A stretch of DNA of 64,000 bases from Solibacillus merdavium (GTDB taxonomy: Bacteria; Bacillota; Bacilli; Bacillales_A; Planococcaceae): positions 248,001-312,000 of the forward strand of contig NZ_JACSPW010000002.1 of NCBI RefSeq assembly GCF_014836935.1, read 5' to 3'. The notes below the pieces were generated by a model. The model was not told the DNA's origin and made no database searches. It was given only the letters and a program-made list of their open reading frames with translations. The position numbers were made by a program, and so were the translations under genes. The first letter of the stretch is position 1. Each line of letters opens with the position of its first letter. Shown here piece after piece: positions 2,422 through 7,826 of this stretch.

Positions 2422-2946
2422 TTACTCTATGCTAGAGGATATTGTATAATCCATTAAAAATTCAATTTTCTCATCAAATTCACTGCATATACTAATACAT
2501 AGATTATTCATAAAAATAGTCTTTACAGTGAATCTCATCTTTTGATAACTACTGAAATGAGCCATGTTTTCATTAATACCTTCTCCCGTACATTTCAATA
2601 TGGCTTCTTTCCTCGTCCAAATCTCAGAAAATGTAGTTCCTTCTTTTATTTTTTGTATTTCATCTTTATGCAAAATCCAAGAATACAAATGTTCATTATA
2701 GATTAAATCATCTTTTTCTATATCTATGCCTACTTTACCTTGCTCGCTTAATACATAAATTAACGTATCATCATTATGTGACCAATTTATAAAAGAAGAA
2801 GAATTTAAAATAAAAGGCTTCCCATTTGAATCTTTTTGAATGGCCACATTACCTAACCGGTCTTTTATTAATTCGGTCGCCCATATTTCTTTTGGGCTGT
2901 TAGAATCCACTTTTGTCTTCCACTTATTTTCCAAATATACTTTCAT
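2422..2946 (-). CDS. Sfp-type 4'-phosphopantetheinyl transferase
   Basis: The enzyme moves phosphopantetheine from coenzyme A onto the conserved serine of a carrier domain. The family metal/CoA motifs are clear: VGIDIEK near residue 72 and WTRKEAILKCTGEGI near residue 110, in the usual spacing for Sfp-type enzymes. At 174 residues it is short compared with Sfp (about 224), nearer to compact members. It lies 64 bases downstream of the adenylation-carrier-reductase gene on the same strand, so that gene's carrier domain is the obvious substrate, the arrangement seen for ausA-ausB in staphylococci. AGGAG sits about ten bases before the ATG, directly after the T-run of a strong hairpin (2962-3005), so expression may depend on read-through or its own promoter. 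Confidence 0.88.
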   Translation of the reverse strand: MKVYLENKWKTKVDSNSPKEIWATELIKDRLGNVAIQKDSNGKPFILNSSSFINWSHNDDTLIYVLSEQGKVGIDIEKDDLIYNEHLYSWILHKDEIQKIKEGTTFSEIWTRKEAILKCTGEGINENMAHFSSYQKMRFTVKTIFMNNLCISICSEFDEKIEFLMDYTISSSIE

Positions 2947-2961
2947 AACATAAATTCTCCT

Positions 2962-3005
2962 AAAAAGGGATGTATTAAAAGTTTTTGACTTTTAATACAT
3001 CCCTT
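2962..3005 (-). terminator. Strong hairpin between the reductase and PPTase genes
   Basis: An 18-bp perfect stem (2965-2982 with 2988-3005), 5-base loop, then five T residues on the minus strand. The T-run abuts the AGGAG of the PPTase gene, so this is either the terminator of the upstream gene or an intra-operon attenuator. Confidence 0.85.
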
Positions 3006-3009
3006 GTGA

Positions 3010-5967
3010 TTATGCGTATACAGCTACTTTAATAAATTGCTGTTCTGAAGCATATTGAATTAATTTACCGATGTACTCTTTTTCTATTTTAGGTAAATGT
3101 TCAATTTTTAGTAGCTGCATCGTTTGTTGGCTATCAAAAATTGCGTTAGTATCATTTGCTCCGTCGCCATCTAATTGTGCAACGGCTAGATTTTTTATTT
3201 CTTCACTCATATTGCCACTTAAAATATAGTCTTCATAAAATGATTTCTCGACCATTTCTATTGATAAATCCAGTTCATTTAATATTGAAACGAATTGTGC
3301 AAACGGAATCGGATTTGGGTGACAAACATGATATACACGAACAGCATGCTCAGCTGTCAATGCTGATTTCACTACTACATCTGCTGCAAAATCAATTGGC
3401 GTGAAATCTACCATCCATTGTACATTTGGCGCTTTATTCACTAAAATCATCAGCTTTAACATTCGATAAAATGCATTTTCATCTATATTGCTTTGGAAAT
3501 GTCCATCACTGTAGCGTCCTGCTAAGTTACCCATTCGGTATACGAATACTTGTTTACCTGTTTTTGCTTGGTCCAAAATCCATTTTTCAGCCTTCATTTT
3601 CGTATCTGTATAAACACTATCCAGCTGTAAATCTTCAGGGATCTCTGACATATATTTCACGTCATTCCATTTTCCTTCTATTAATAGATCCTGTACAACG
3701 CCTACTGTTGAAATATGGTGGAACGTGATATCTGAATTTATACTTACTAGTTCAAATATATTTTTAGTACCTTGTACATTCACTTTTTCAAAATGTTCCC
3801 GATTTCCAAAGTGTCTTACATCTGCTGCTGAATGGATAATGGCATCGATTTTGTTGGCCAGCTCTGTAAAGACCTCTTTCGATAAACCTAAAAATTGTTT
3901 AGTTAAGTCCCCGCTAATAACCGTAATAAGAGAATGCATATTACAATTGAAGTATTTTTGCATTGTTTCATATACTCGTTGCTCGGCGTTTTCTCCACGG
4001 ACAAGTAAAACTACTTCTTTCCCTTCATCCAGCAATTTTTTGGCAATATGACTACCTAAAAATCCGGTAGCTCCTGTAACCAATACTCTATTCACTGGCA
4101 TTACTTTTTCTTTGATTGACATTATCGGCCATTCTGTTAACTTCGTAAACTCCCCATTAAATTCAACTTCTTTATTTACTGAAGTTTTGATTACTTTTTC
4201 AGCTAAATTTTCTATTGTTTTTAAATCGAAAAAATCTTTAATCGTCAATGCAGGATATGTCTGTTTTACATGAGCTAAAATTTCAATAACCTTTAACGAA
4301 TGTCCACCAATATCAAATAAATTATCGTTTACACTAACCGAATCAATTTTCAGTACTTTTTGCCATACAGCAACAAGGTCGCTTTCTACTTTATTGCGCG
4401 GTGCAATTATTTCTCTTGAACCCATCAAAGACACACGATCAGCTTCAATTTTCTCCAGTGCTTTTCTATCCACTTTACCTGTTGGTGCAAATGGAATATC
4501 TTCCAGTTGCTTCAACTTAGCCGGAAGCATATAGCTCGGCAAATCTGCCTTTAATATCTCGATAATGGATGAATGATCAATATGATCGGTAGAAGTGAAA
4601 AAGGCCTTTAATATTTGATCATCTTCTTCTTTTTCAACGACTACAACTGCATTATTTACTCCATCAATTTCATTCATCTTCGTTTCAATTTCAGCTATTT
4701 CAATTCGATGTCCACGGATTTTAACTTGCGTATCCTTACGTGAAACGAATTCAATGTTACCATCAGCCAATTGCTTTACAAGGTCCCCTGTTTTATAAAC
4801 GATTCCTTCATAAATATTGGAATCAAAAGGATTTTGAACAAATACTTCTTTTGTCTTTTCTTCATTATGTAAGTAACCTAAGGAAATCCCGACAGAAGCT
4901 ACCCATAGCTCACCCACTTCATTTACTTCACATTGTTTTCCATCCTCATTGACTATGTAGACTTTATTACCTGGTAATTGCTTACCAATCGGAACACTAT
5001 AGACATCATTTGAAAGGTCCTTTGGAACTTCATAAGCTGTTGCCATGACTGTAATTTCAGTAGGACCGTATAAATTGAAGAATCTCGTTTTATCACCAAC
5101 AAATGATTTGAATTTTCTTGCCAAGTCACCTGTTAATAATTCTCCACCAACACCGACTAGTTTTACAGAGGTAAATAAATCTGAATTTTCTTCTGTTAAA
5201 TGATTTACAATTCGATTAAAGAAAACAGTCGGTAATACCGGAATAATAGTAATCCCTTCATTTTTTACAACGTTAAGAAAATTACTTTCAGCCATTCGTT
5301 CTTCGTCATCTATTAAATAAAGCATTGAACCGGTTAATAATGATAAAAATGTATCTAATACAGACGCGTCAAAGCTATATGTAGCAAATTGTAATATTCT
5401 ATCCTGGTCATTTACTTGCCAATCTTTTTGCATATAATCCACTAAGTTTAAAATTCCCTTTTGGCGAATTAAAGTTCCTTTTGGCTTACCAGTTGTACCT
5501 GATGTGAAGATTGTATAGCACGGATCTTCCACTCGATCATTTACATCTCCAAATAAATCGGCTGATTTATTGGCATAGATTTTTTCTAACTGCAAAATAT
5601 TCATTGAGGGATTATGCTGTAAGAAACTTAGATTTTGCTCTGCACCCGCATTTGTAATAATAAATGAAGTATTAATATCTTCTATAATATAGCTGTTTCG
5701 CTCATTTGGGTGAGATGGATCTAAAGAAACATACACTCCACCAGCTTTTATAATACCTAATAATGAAACAACCGTATCGACGCTTCTTTTTAAATAAATT
5801 GCTACAAAGCCACCCTTTTCAAAACCATTGTCGATTAAATAACGAGCTACTTTATTGGACTCATTATCCAATTCAGTAAATGACAGTTGACGGTTTCTCT
5901 CCTTTAAAGCAATTGCATCCCCTTGCTTTAAAACAATTTCATTAAATTTATGTAAAATAGTATCCAT
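3010..5967 (-). CDS. Single-module NRPS-like carboxylate reductase (adenylation-carrier-thioester reductase)
   Basis: The 985-residue enzyme should activate one carboxylic or amino acid as an adenylate, load it on its carrier domain and release it as an aldehyde (or alcohol) with NAD(P)H. Adenylation domain, about 1-510: FTSGTTGKPKG (A3), FDAS (A4), NLYGPTE (A5), YKTGDL (A7), RKDTQVKIRGHRIE (A8), PTGKVDRK (A10). Carrier: DIGGHSL with Ser near 557. Reductase, about 630-985: TGATGFLG nucleotide site near 631-638 and a Tyr786-x3-Lys790 pair (YTDTK). There is no condensation or thioesterase domain. The Asp of FDAS suggests an alpha-amino acid substrate; the other pocket residues look hydrophobic. 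I choose the ATG at 5967, which has AAAGGA ten bases upstream, over the ATG at 6003 whose AGGTG is too close. A PPTase gene follows. Confidence 0.88.
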   Translation of the reverse strand: MDTILHKFNEIVLKQGDAIALKERNRQLSFTELDNESNKVARYLIDNGFEKGGFVAIYLKRSVDTVVSLLGIIKAGGVYVSLDPSHPNERNSYIIEDINTSFIITNAGAEQNLSFLQHNPSMNILQLEKIYANKSADLFGDVNDRVEDPCYTIFTSGTTGKPKGTLIRQKGILNLVDYMQKDWQVNDQDRILQFATYSFDASVLDTFLSLLTGSMLYLIDDEERMAESNFLNVVKNEGITIIPVLPTVFFNRIVNHLTEENSDLFTSVKLVGVGGELLTGDLARKFKSFVGDKTRFFNLYGPTEITVMATAYEVPKDLSNDVYSVPIGKQLPGNKVYIVNEDGKQCEVNEVGELWVASVGISLGYLHNEEKTKEVFVQNPFDSNIYEGIVYKTGDLVKQLADGNIEFVSRKDTQVKIRGHRIEIAEIETKMNEIDGVNNAVVVVEKEEDDQILKAFFTSTDHIDHSSIIEILKADLPSYMLPAKLKQLEDIPFAPTGKVDRKALEKIEADRVSLMGSREIIAPRNKVESDLVAVWQKVLKIDSVSVNDNLFDIGGHSLKVIEILAHVKQTYPALTIKDFFDLKTIENLAEKVIKTSVNKEVEFNGEFTKLTEWPIMSIKEKVMPVNRVLVTGATGFLGSHIAKKLLDEGKEVVLLVRGENAEQRVYETMQKYFNCNMHSLITVISGDLTKQFLGLSKEVFTELANKIDAIIHSAADVRHFGNREHFEKVNVQGTKNIFELVSINSDITFHHISTVGVVQDLLIEGKWNDVKYMSEIPEDLQLDSVYTDTKMKAEKWILDQAKTGKQVFVYRMGNLAGRYSDGHFQSNIDENAFYRMLKLMILVNKAPNVQWMVDFTPIDFAADVVVKSALTAEHAVRVYHVCHPNPIPFAQFVSILNELDLSIEMVEKSFYEDYILSGNMSEEIKNLAVAQLDGDGANDTNAIFDSQQTMQLLKIEHLPKIEKEYIGKLIQYASEQQFIKVAVYA

Positions 5968-6023
5968 TAACTTATCATCCTTTCCAAAAATATATGTATT
6001 CATTCACCTATATAAACTAATTA

Positions 6024-6052
6024 AGGAGGCATTTAACTTTCAAATGCCTCCT
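6024..6052 (-). terminator. Hairpin between the chemoreceptor and the reductase gene
   Basis: AGGAGGCATTT (6024-6034) pairs perfectly with 6042-6052 across a 7-base loop. On the minus strand it follows the chemoreceptor stop by about 28 bases, but the downstream tail (TAATTAGTTT) is a weak T-tract, so termination may be partial. Confidence 0.6.
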
Positions 6053-6080
6053 CTGAAATTTAATATGCGATTAAAACTCT

Positions 6081-7826
6081 TTAATTTTTAATCGTACTAA
6101 CAACTTCTTCTAATTCCTCGGAAGTGACTTTTAAGTTCTCAGACATATTTCGGATATTGCCTAAAGTACCACGTTGGTTTTCTACATTCGTAGCTATACC
6201 TTCATATCCGTCTACAATTTCGCTAGCATTTGTAGATAATGTAATAATCATGGCTGTAGATTCTTCTACGCCTGCGGAAATTTCCTCTGTAGCCAAAGAT
6301 ACTGATTGCAATTTATCCGTAATTTCTTTATTAAATTCATAGATTTTATTGAACATTTCGTTTGTATGCAGAGTAGATTTTTTCCCACCATCTACACCAA
6401 TTTTTATGCTTTCCATAAACTTTTGTGCTTCTGTTACCGCTTCTCGTACACGTCCAATCAGTTCTTGAATGCCTTCTGTTGATTTAGCTGACTGCTCAGA
6501 TAGCTTTTTAACTTCCTGTGCGACTACAGCAAACCCTTTTCCATGTTCTCCTGCACGCGCAGCTTCAATACTTGCATTTAATGCCAATAAATTAGTCGCA
6601 TCTGAAATATCTGTAATAATCTGTAGAAACTTACCGATTTCATCGGATAAATTTACTAAAGTACCAATATTTTGATTCGAATTTTCTACATTTACTACAA
6701 TGGATTCCATTTGATTCGTTACATCTGCGATTGCCTTGCTACCATCATTCGAATATGCAGTAACGTCTTCAGCGTATTTGTATACATCAGTTACATCCAC
6801 TGCAATTTGCTGAACTTGTCCAGACATCTCTTCCATCGATAATGCTGCCTCTTCAATTGAAGTTTCTTGCCCTTTTAAATTCGTTTTCATGTTTGTAACC
6901 GCGCCGGTAATTTTATCAAATGTATTAAATGTTGACATAAAAGCATTTTCCAATTGAATGGAGTCTTCTTTTACTTTCCCAGCTGAAACATTCACACTGT
7001 TTACAATATTACTTAATGAGGAAATCATCTCATTGAATCGTGCATTTACTGTGCCCAATTCATCTTTTCCTTCTGGTATATTAACCGTTAAATCGCCTTT
7101 ACTTGCTTTATTAATCCCTGCCAACAAGTAAGTTAAAGGTTTTAGCTGGGATTTAATAACGAAATACTGCACAAGAATTGCAATGATTAATAATATTGCC
7201 AGTATGATTGATGACCACATTAACAATCCCATTTGACCTTCACCAACACTTGAAGCATTTACATCAATAGCATAATAGGCAATTAAATCGTTTTGTGCAT
7301 TGAAAATTGGGTACATAAACGTTAACCATGTACCATAGTCATCTTTATAAATCTCTGTAAATTGCGGTTTGCCTGTTTCTTTTAAAATATTTAATCCCTC
7401 AACGACAATATCCGGCTGTTCGTATAAAGTACCAGGTTGTAGGCCTTCCCCTTTAAACATTTCCCAAATCGCATCATCGAATGAAATTAATGACGTTTCA
7501 TTGTTCTTTTCTCCTGCTAATTCAACCCCATAAATATAGCCTTGTGCTACTACAGGATTATATTCACTCATTTTGTTGAACATATCTGTATATTTTTTAT
7601 GTACAGGACTTTGAATATTTGTTTCCTGTATTAATTGTTCAACTTCATTTCCATCTAGCTTTTCGTACCAAGACTCAGAAATATCCTGTGTCTGTTCTCT
7701 TAACTGTTCCTTTAATAAATATCCCTGTACAACATAACTTATACCAATAAGAACTGTCCCTACAAATAAAATTGTTACTATAGTAACTAATATGTTTTTT
7801 GTGAAAAATGTTAGATTTCGAAACAT
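6081..7826 (-). CDS. Methyl-accepting chemotaxis protein
   Basis: A membrane chemoreceptor that signals through CheW/CheA to the flagellar motor. Order: short cytoplasmic N-terminus, transmembrane helix about 11-33, an extracytoplasmic sensor of roughly 165 residues that looks like a dCache/single-Cache-type fold, transmembrane helix about 202-224, HAMP about 225-277, then a long coiled coil. The signalling tip contains [16 protein letters not shown] and [13 protein letters not shown], the most conserved part of the family. Length (581) is normal. No ligand can be named. It lies upstream of the reductase gene on the same strand, separated by a hairpin, so co-transcription is possible but not shown. 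Confidence 0.95.

Follow-up and report, generated by a model that had tools for sequence, protein, structure and literature searches.

A single-module A-T-R synthetase gene linked to a chemoreceptor gene in Bacilli: a candidate synthase-receptor cassette

Introduction

Why should a gene for a stand-alone reductase-type synthetase lie next to a gene for a chemoreceptor? The question is raised by a locus of Solibacillus merdavium, found in a stretch of 64,000 nucleotides (assembly GCF_014836935.1, contig NZ_JACSPW010000002.1, positions 248,001 to 312,000 of the forward strand) that is called the window below. On the minus strand of the window, three genes follow one another in the order methyl-accepting chemotaxis protein (MCP, 6081..7826), nonribosomal peptide synthetase (NRPS)-like synthase (3010..5967) and 4'-phosphopantetheinyl transferase (PPTase, 2422..2946). 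The MCP-synthase gap is 77 nt, counted to the longer synthase start, and the synthase-PPTase gap is 63 nt. The synthase consists of one adenylation (A), one carrier (T) and one thioester reductase (R) domain. A preliminary description, made from the sequence of the window, had regarded synthase and PPTase as the system. Both genes do belong to it, but the unit comprises three genes and occurs in many families.

Few chemoreceptors have known ligands. Where a receptor is inherited together with the probable source of its ligand, a biosynthetic enzyme, the two could be matched directly. Full-text searches of the open-licence literature listed no paper on the MCP-synthase pair. The two genes are linked in many genomes of the Bacilli, and we put the probability that they form a synthase-receptor cassette, in which the MCP senses the A-T-R product or a direct derivative of it, at roughly 60%.

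Results

Linkage of the chemoreceptor and synthase genes

Homologues were sought in overlapping sets of 101 relatives, 16 genus, 261 family, 398 class and 299 phylum genomes. Loci scoring at least 938 bits with the synthase profile were counted as cassette-type single-module loci, the line between these and the controls being set after the scores were seen. An adjacent MCP gene was present in 69 of the 71 loci so defined, upstream and co-directional in 65 (median gap 76 nt), divergent in 2 and downstream in 2. The comparison of neighbourhoods among relatives, proposed in the preliminary description, placed the MCP gene immediately upstream in every one of the 41 family genomes (of 261) with a single-module A-T-R gene, co-directionally in 39 and divergently in 2. 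Outside the family it accompanied 28 of 30 further loci, twice downstream of the synthase. An even draw from the class gave 40 carriers among 398 genomes (at least 1,180 bits, open frame below 1,320 aa), with an MCP gene at 37 of the 39 loci examined, the 40th (G363) being left out. The pair was also found on two named Paenibacillus replicons, one of them with the PPTase. Because the window genome holds 22 MCP-domain matches in 3.78 Mb, a chance MCP neighbour was estimated to be rare, about 1% per gene. CheA-type domains were present in 41/41 family carriers compared to 192/261 genomes overall (hypergeometric 9e-7, kinship ignored).

The surroundings of the pair vary. When loci were joined if any of three genes per side was at least 50% identical, the 71 loci fell into 24 flank contexts, of which 23 keep the MCP and one lacks it. 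Membership of a larger NRPS cluster was rejected on the differences in flanking genes between these contexts, which are annotated in part; another adenylating ORF (155-164 bits) lies near L142 and L144. The PPTase is a looser member: the synthase is followed by a gene of at least 150 aa in 41 of the 71 loci, and in one named plasmid the PPTase stands before the MCP.

As controls, 18 other reductase NRPS loci were available, none with an adjacent MCP above 300 bits. Domain scanning assigned a full C-A-T-R architecture, with condensation (C) domain, to L160-L163, and an MCP-like ORF of 26 bits was seen three genes away from L163. Eleven others (L034, L095-L100, L164-L167) are di- or multimodular or lie in larger clusters, as classed by length and neighbours; L164 alone of these was domain-scanned and proved to be A-T-C-A-T-R. 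The remaining three of the 18, L157-L159, had been chosen as controls but turned out on scanning to be single-module as well. Among the larger reductase synthetases the count of adjacent MCPs above 300 bits was 0/15.

The trees of the two proteins were largely congruent. After 20 of 89 rows (19 close relatives and L034) had been dropped from the synthase tree and 19 of 69 from the MCP tree, leaving 50, the trees had 31 of 47 splits in common, compared to a mean of 0.28 and a maximum of 3 with shuffled labels. Conflict with a starred MCP split was found for 3 of the 34 starred synthase splits. One side of a starred branch (99) comprised 48 of 50 cassette rows along with two dimodular rows of family f36 and two single-module rows lacking the MCP. 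Presence of the MCP required 5 changes on the whole synthase tree, a quick tree with long branches, compared to a shuffled mean of 16.8. Taken together, MCP and synthase very probably form a functional unit; this confidence was lowered somewhat because L157, described below, is one more synthase without MCP.

Mobility, decay and origin

The window locus was matched at 90% identity in Solibacillus faecavium A46. Within the genus, the cassette was present in 8 of 16 genomes, seven of them close relatives of the window genome and the eighth (G010) from another lineage, and its position varied. The interval from the CoxG gene to the M42 peptidase gene houses the cassette in the window genome and G005, and has other content in the six other Solibacillus genomes read at this site. 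It measures 131 bp in G010; G001 has a GerA germination gene plus two further genes there, G003 has a DUF3784 gene, and G008, G012 and G014 have yet other genes. Between the cassette and the M42 peptidase gene of G005 lies a PAS-GGDEF diguanylate cyclase gene (L024:12302-14047), and none is found there in the window. A TraX-family gene (L131:2732-3352) adjoins the cassette in one genome of family f3, and several of its kin have genes of the same length at that place.

One case of decay was seen in genus g83. The gene row of G616 reads SpoIIE-MCP-ATR-VWA-kinase-TilS, and G413, scanned gene by gene, has the same row without the MCP. The synthase of G413 has lost the core Asp (to Gly) and the reductase Tyr (to Cys), the sole such protein among the 89 tabulated (the reductase columns of L034 being gapped). 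This is a single case, but it is as would be expected if each gene were of little use without the other. The cassette thus appears, from these comparisons, to move and decay as a unit, with L154 of G590 (no MCP, residues intact) as a counter-case.

Some relatives of about 1,200-1,300 aa keep a C-terminal remnant of a condensation domain, covering profile positions 192-278 in L154, 201-277 in L033 and 195-455 of 456 in L155. No condensation domain was detected by Pfam in the window protein, L030 or L032. The single-module A-T-R synthetase may therefore derive from a C-A-T-R module whose condensation domain was lost in two steps, catalytic lobe first, in that presumed direction. Cut-down condensation domains also occur outside cassettes, in L157-L159.

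The chemoreceptor and its sensor domain

The MCP of 581 aa (6081..7826, minus strand) lies directly upstream of the synthase on the same strand, where the preliminary description had seen it. Its layout is an extracellular sensor domain (about residues 34-202), HAMP (222-272) and a signalling domain (352-524), with MCPsignal at 133 bits and HAMP at 39 bits, both over cut-off. The median identity of the signalling domain among the 50 MCP rows was 35%. With its border residues, the sensor domain is encoded by 7209..7745 (minus strand). It matched no Pfam family with confidence; its Cache/PDC-like character is weak, with dCache_1 at 13.9 bits against a cut-off of 45 in the window protein, and an MCP-like_PDC_1 match in 2 of 16 members (best 7.5e-06). 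Calmodulin and dynein light chain, among the top matches in a search for structural relatives, were taken as chance.

Two types of sensor domain were recognized in the 69 cassette MCPs, group I in 32 and group II in 35, with 2 more nearer to group I. The group I profile (A4) was built from 16 of the 32 and the group II profile (A5) from 9 of the 35. Matches to the group II domain were obtained in 31 of the 261 family genomes, each time with at least 370 bits, and 30 of these are the 30 group II cassette carriers. In the remaining genome, G142, the MCP is followed by 341 bases up to the contig end, in which no synthase start is seen. The remark in the preliminary description that a chemoreceptor would suit a signalling product turned out to be central.

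The group I domain was found above 200 bits in 11 family carriers and in 8 further matches in 7 of the 261 genomes, one of the eight lying beside a cassette and two in broken or cut genes. Five more matches scored 115-165 bits. As a side observation, a more distant MCP gene followed by short-chain dehydrogenase and sodium:solute symporter genes was seen in L211:2094-6100, L212:6000-10030, L213:5994-10087 and L214:5928-10017.

The synthase

The longest open reading frame for the synthase is 3010..6003 (minus strand, 997 aa), from an ATG at 6003 in the list of open reading frames. The start at 5967, giving 985 aa, is the better choice because an internal ATG (M-x-T-I-L) is the start in most orthologues. 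Pfam matches were AMP-binding (24-378), PP-binding (542-602) and NAD_binding_4 (642-876), together with AMP-binding_C (438-510) at 22.8 bits against a cut-off of 24.5; there was no condensation domain among them. Carrier Ser569 and reductase Thr766, Tyr798 and Lys802 are present and invariant in an alignment of 13 sequences. The minimal A-T-R architecture of the preliminary description, with carrier serine and Tyr-x3-Lys pair and without condensation domain, was thereby confirmed, and the loss of catalytic residues that would have spoken against it was looked for and not found. In domains and catalytic residues the window synthase accordingly agrees with an NRPS-like A-T-R protein of the ATRed kind.

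The best curated model for the synthase was the AusA equivalog NF047350, with 555 bits, far below its cut-off of 2500. The match spans profile positions 1432-2369, the second module of AusA, and the window synthase has one module where AusA requires A-T-C-A-T-R. The likeness to AusA/AusB logic pointed out earlier therefore holds at the level of nearest curated models, both below cut-off. An alpha-aminoadipate reductase (TIGR03443, Lys2), the other identity that would have overturned the preliminary description, was rejected on its score of 307 bits, which lies below both the cut-off of 1030 and the 555 bits obtained with AusA. No carboxylic acid reductase (CAR) model was among the 25 best of 132 NCBIfam models, none being sought by name.

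Placed on the core motifs, the specificity code of the A domain reads D-A-L-P-G-G-L-V-M-K. The earlier reading by eye, D-A-L-P-V-V-L-V-M-K, was wrong at two positions, V-V at 299/301 where G-G belongs. The positions named here (235, 278, 299, 301) follow GrsA numbering, in which conservation of Asp at 235 indicates that the substrate is an alpha-amino acid. A-domain codes vary between clades, although a gap at position 278 of the alignment masks one residue in many rows, and products therefore probably differ by clade as well. Three f3 genomes (G505, G545 and G303) have the code D-G-W-T-A-A-A-V-C-K, close to the Phe code of GrsA.

The PPTase and the intergenic hairpins

The gene 2422..2946 (minus strand) encodes a compact Sfp-type PPTase of 174 aa, as had been described. 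PF01648 matched with 40.7 bits against a gathering cut-off of 25, which places it in the superfamily, and the best NCBIfam model, the AusB equivalog NF047349, gave 53 bits against a cut-off of 225. The genome of the window also holds other, multimodular NRPS genes (G000:C53:115900-138897 and G000:C54:62714-67516), and because of these the PPTase may have clients beyond the cassette.

An 18-pair hairpin (2965..3005, minus strand; z -6.0, none of 200 shuffles as stable) lies in the synthase-PPTase gap and is followed by a T run and the ribosome-binding site of the PPTase. It may be an attenuator of the PPTase, because so stable a hairpin stands just before that site. In the MCP-synthase gap a 14-pair hairpin (6023..6053, minus strand) is terminator-like by pattern alone; with it, two terminator-like sites were found in the region, where shuffling gave an expectation of 2.3.

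Discussion

Linkage, congruent trees and the group II sensor pattern together give the co-inheritance that is characteristic of an autoinducer synthase and its receptor. From the domain content, the cassette is proposed to work as follows. The PPTase would arm the carrier of the synthase, and the A domain would load one alpha-amino acid, probably hydrophobic. The reductase would then release an alpha-amino aldehyde, which may persist unchanged, undergo reduction, or dimerise with oxidation to a symmetrical pyrazine. This small compound would leave the cell by diffusion and be bound outside it by the sensor domain of the MCP. The receptor in turn would feed the ordinary CheA pathway, and cells would collect near same-type producers or avoid them.

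Several observations weigh against this proposal. L157 (899 bits), L158 (694) and L159 (762) are single-module synthetases with a cut-down condensation domain and no MCP, L159 carrying a methyltransferase domain as well; when they are counted, the MCP accompanies 69 of 74 single-module loci. L157 is moreover the closest tree neighbour of the two f36 cassette synthases, one of which is likewise encoded in its genome, G409. L154 is single-module with its catalytic residues kept and has no MCP, and L153 is single-module with damaged residues and no MCP. Next to each of two dimodular synthetases of f36 lies a divergent MCP-like gene (180-184 bits) that matches neither sensor profile. Sensor-domain and A-domain distances showed no correlation beyond shared history (partial correlation -0.01). 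The AlphaFold model of the sensor domain, obtained from two sequences, had a predicted local distance difference test score (pLDDT) of 38, and no solved structural relatives of the domain were found. No convincing SigD-type promoter was detected upstream of the MCP: with the SigD consensus, 13 of 69 upstream regions matched at 10 or more of 12 positions, compared to 6.5 expected from mononucleotide shuffles, at scattered positions, and the candidate was rejected. Finally, the further group I matches have no synthase in the stretch read, some of these stretches being short because of contig ends, with the second receptor of G024 as the exception. Three of these orphans (G211, G208 and G223) are convergent to a pyridoxal phosphate (PLP)-dependent decarboxylase gene, and group I domains may for that reason bind other amino-acid derivatives.

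Some of these loci are of interest in their own right. L157:1358-4891 is a second single-module A-T-R gene in G409, without MCP, and may have another partner. The f36 dimodules L164:3420-10007 and L165:3364-9942 each have a divergently oriented MCP-like gene beside them, whose sensor is of another type. In the orphan receptor loci L201:3884-5524, L202:3535-5175 and L203:3660-5324, the convergent decarboxylase gene has PF00282 in all three.

A variant that overlaps with the preferred explanation holds that the reductase reduces twice, and that the receptor reads an amino alcohol instead of an aldehyde or pyrazine. Aldehydes released by R domains can indeed be reduced on to alcohols (PMC7586950; here and below, cited sources are represented by excerpts). 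The nearest curated model, however, is AusA, with a route that runs via an aldehyde and a cyclic imine according to the same source, and we hold the alcohol to be the less favoured form of the signal, though one to be kept in mind.

We find it unlikely that the ligand of the MCP is the amino-acid precursor or some other nutrient, with the product acting as a defensive volatile, which would couple foraging with weaponry. Group I receptors without synthase that adjoin genes for a PLP decarboxylase, or for an M20 peptidase and a DcuC-type transporter, would fit such a role, as would the 2,5-bis(1-methylethyl)-pyrazine of a Paenibacillus strain, reported to be antimicrobial in a paper whose excerpted text links no gene to it (PMC5481530). 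By itself, a nutrient receptor leaves unexplained why the group II domain is found solely with the synthase, and why absence of the MCP coincides with damage to the synthase.

Distinctly unlikely, in our view, is a receptor for self-protection that makes cells disperse because the product is a reactive or toxic aldehyde. The genetics would be identical to those of the preferred explanation, and alpha-amino aldehydes are electrophilic by established chemistry. However, no common detoxifying gene was apparent in the 24 contexts, whose flanks differ and are annotated in part, and sequence does not tell attraction from repulsion. A linkage that has no function, the two genes being an old pair, neutral or selfish, spread by transfer, would suit a cassette found at different places within one genus, but is highly improbable given that the MCP is kept in 23 of 24 contexts while PPTase and flanks change freely, and that a neutral pair should split over such divergence as the 35% signalling-domain identity reflects.

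On a wider scale, it seems to us an even bet that the cassettes constitute a widespread kind of autocrine chemotaxis system in Bacilli that has so far had no name, in which a clade-specific, private quorum-type signal steers swimming and orphan group I receptors act as listeners. If true, a signalling system with movement as its read-out would be added in about 1 in 10 of the class genomes drawn (the 40 of 398 with the synthase), and the source and role of bacterial pyrazines would become testable gene by gene.

Comparison with known systems

The closest curated relative of the cassette is AusA-AusB of Staphylococcus, in which AusA makes the aureusimines (PMC12153313). AusA and AusB provide the best curated models for synthase (555 bits) and PPTase (53 bits), and a terminal reductase is a shared feature, with Thr/Tyr/Lys in the window synthase. 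AusA is A-T-C-A-T-R (PMC12153313), whereas the window synthase has one module, no condensation domain and scores far below the curated cut-offs. The cassette also has an MCP attached, and none adjoins any of the 6 AusA-like dimodules forming one group of the tree.

ATRed of Xenorhabdus indica is a lone A-T-R protein giving a pyrazine, for which two amino aldehydes are the proposed precursors (PMC7586950). By description it resembles the window synthase as a stand-alone A-T-R enzyme and sets a precedent for a pyrazine product. The excerpts of that source mention no chemoreceptor, unlike the cassette with its MCP. Paenibacillus makes 2,5-bis(1-methylethyl)-pyrazine (PMC5481530, PMC9948732, with no gene linked to it in the excerpts), a compound which, as a structural remark, has the shape of two joined valinals.

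On the receptor side, Escherichia coli steers by self-made autoinducer-2 (AI-2; PMC5056481), and the proposed cassette would work alike, a small molecule being both made and steered by. The signal is a different one, and in the cassette synthase and receptor are one co-inherited unit. PctA and TlpQ are AI-2-binding dCache chemoreceptors (PMC7584622) and, like the MCP proposed here, are examples of an MCP as autoinducer receptor. They have another sensor domain, and the excerpted text names no attached synthase gene (PMC7584622), in contrast to the MCP of the cassette, which stands next to its synthase.

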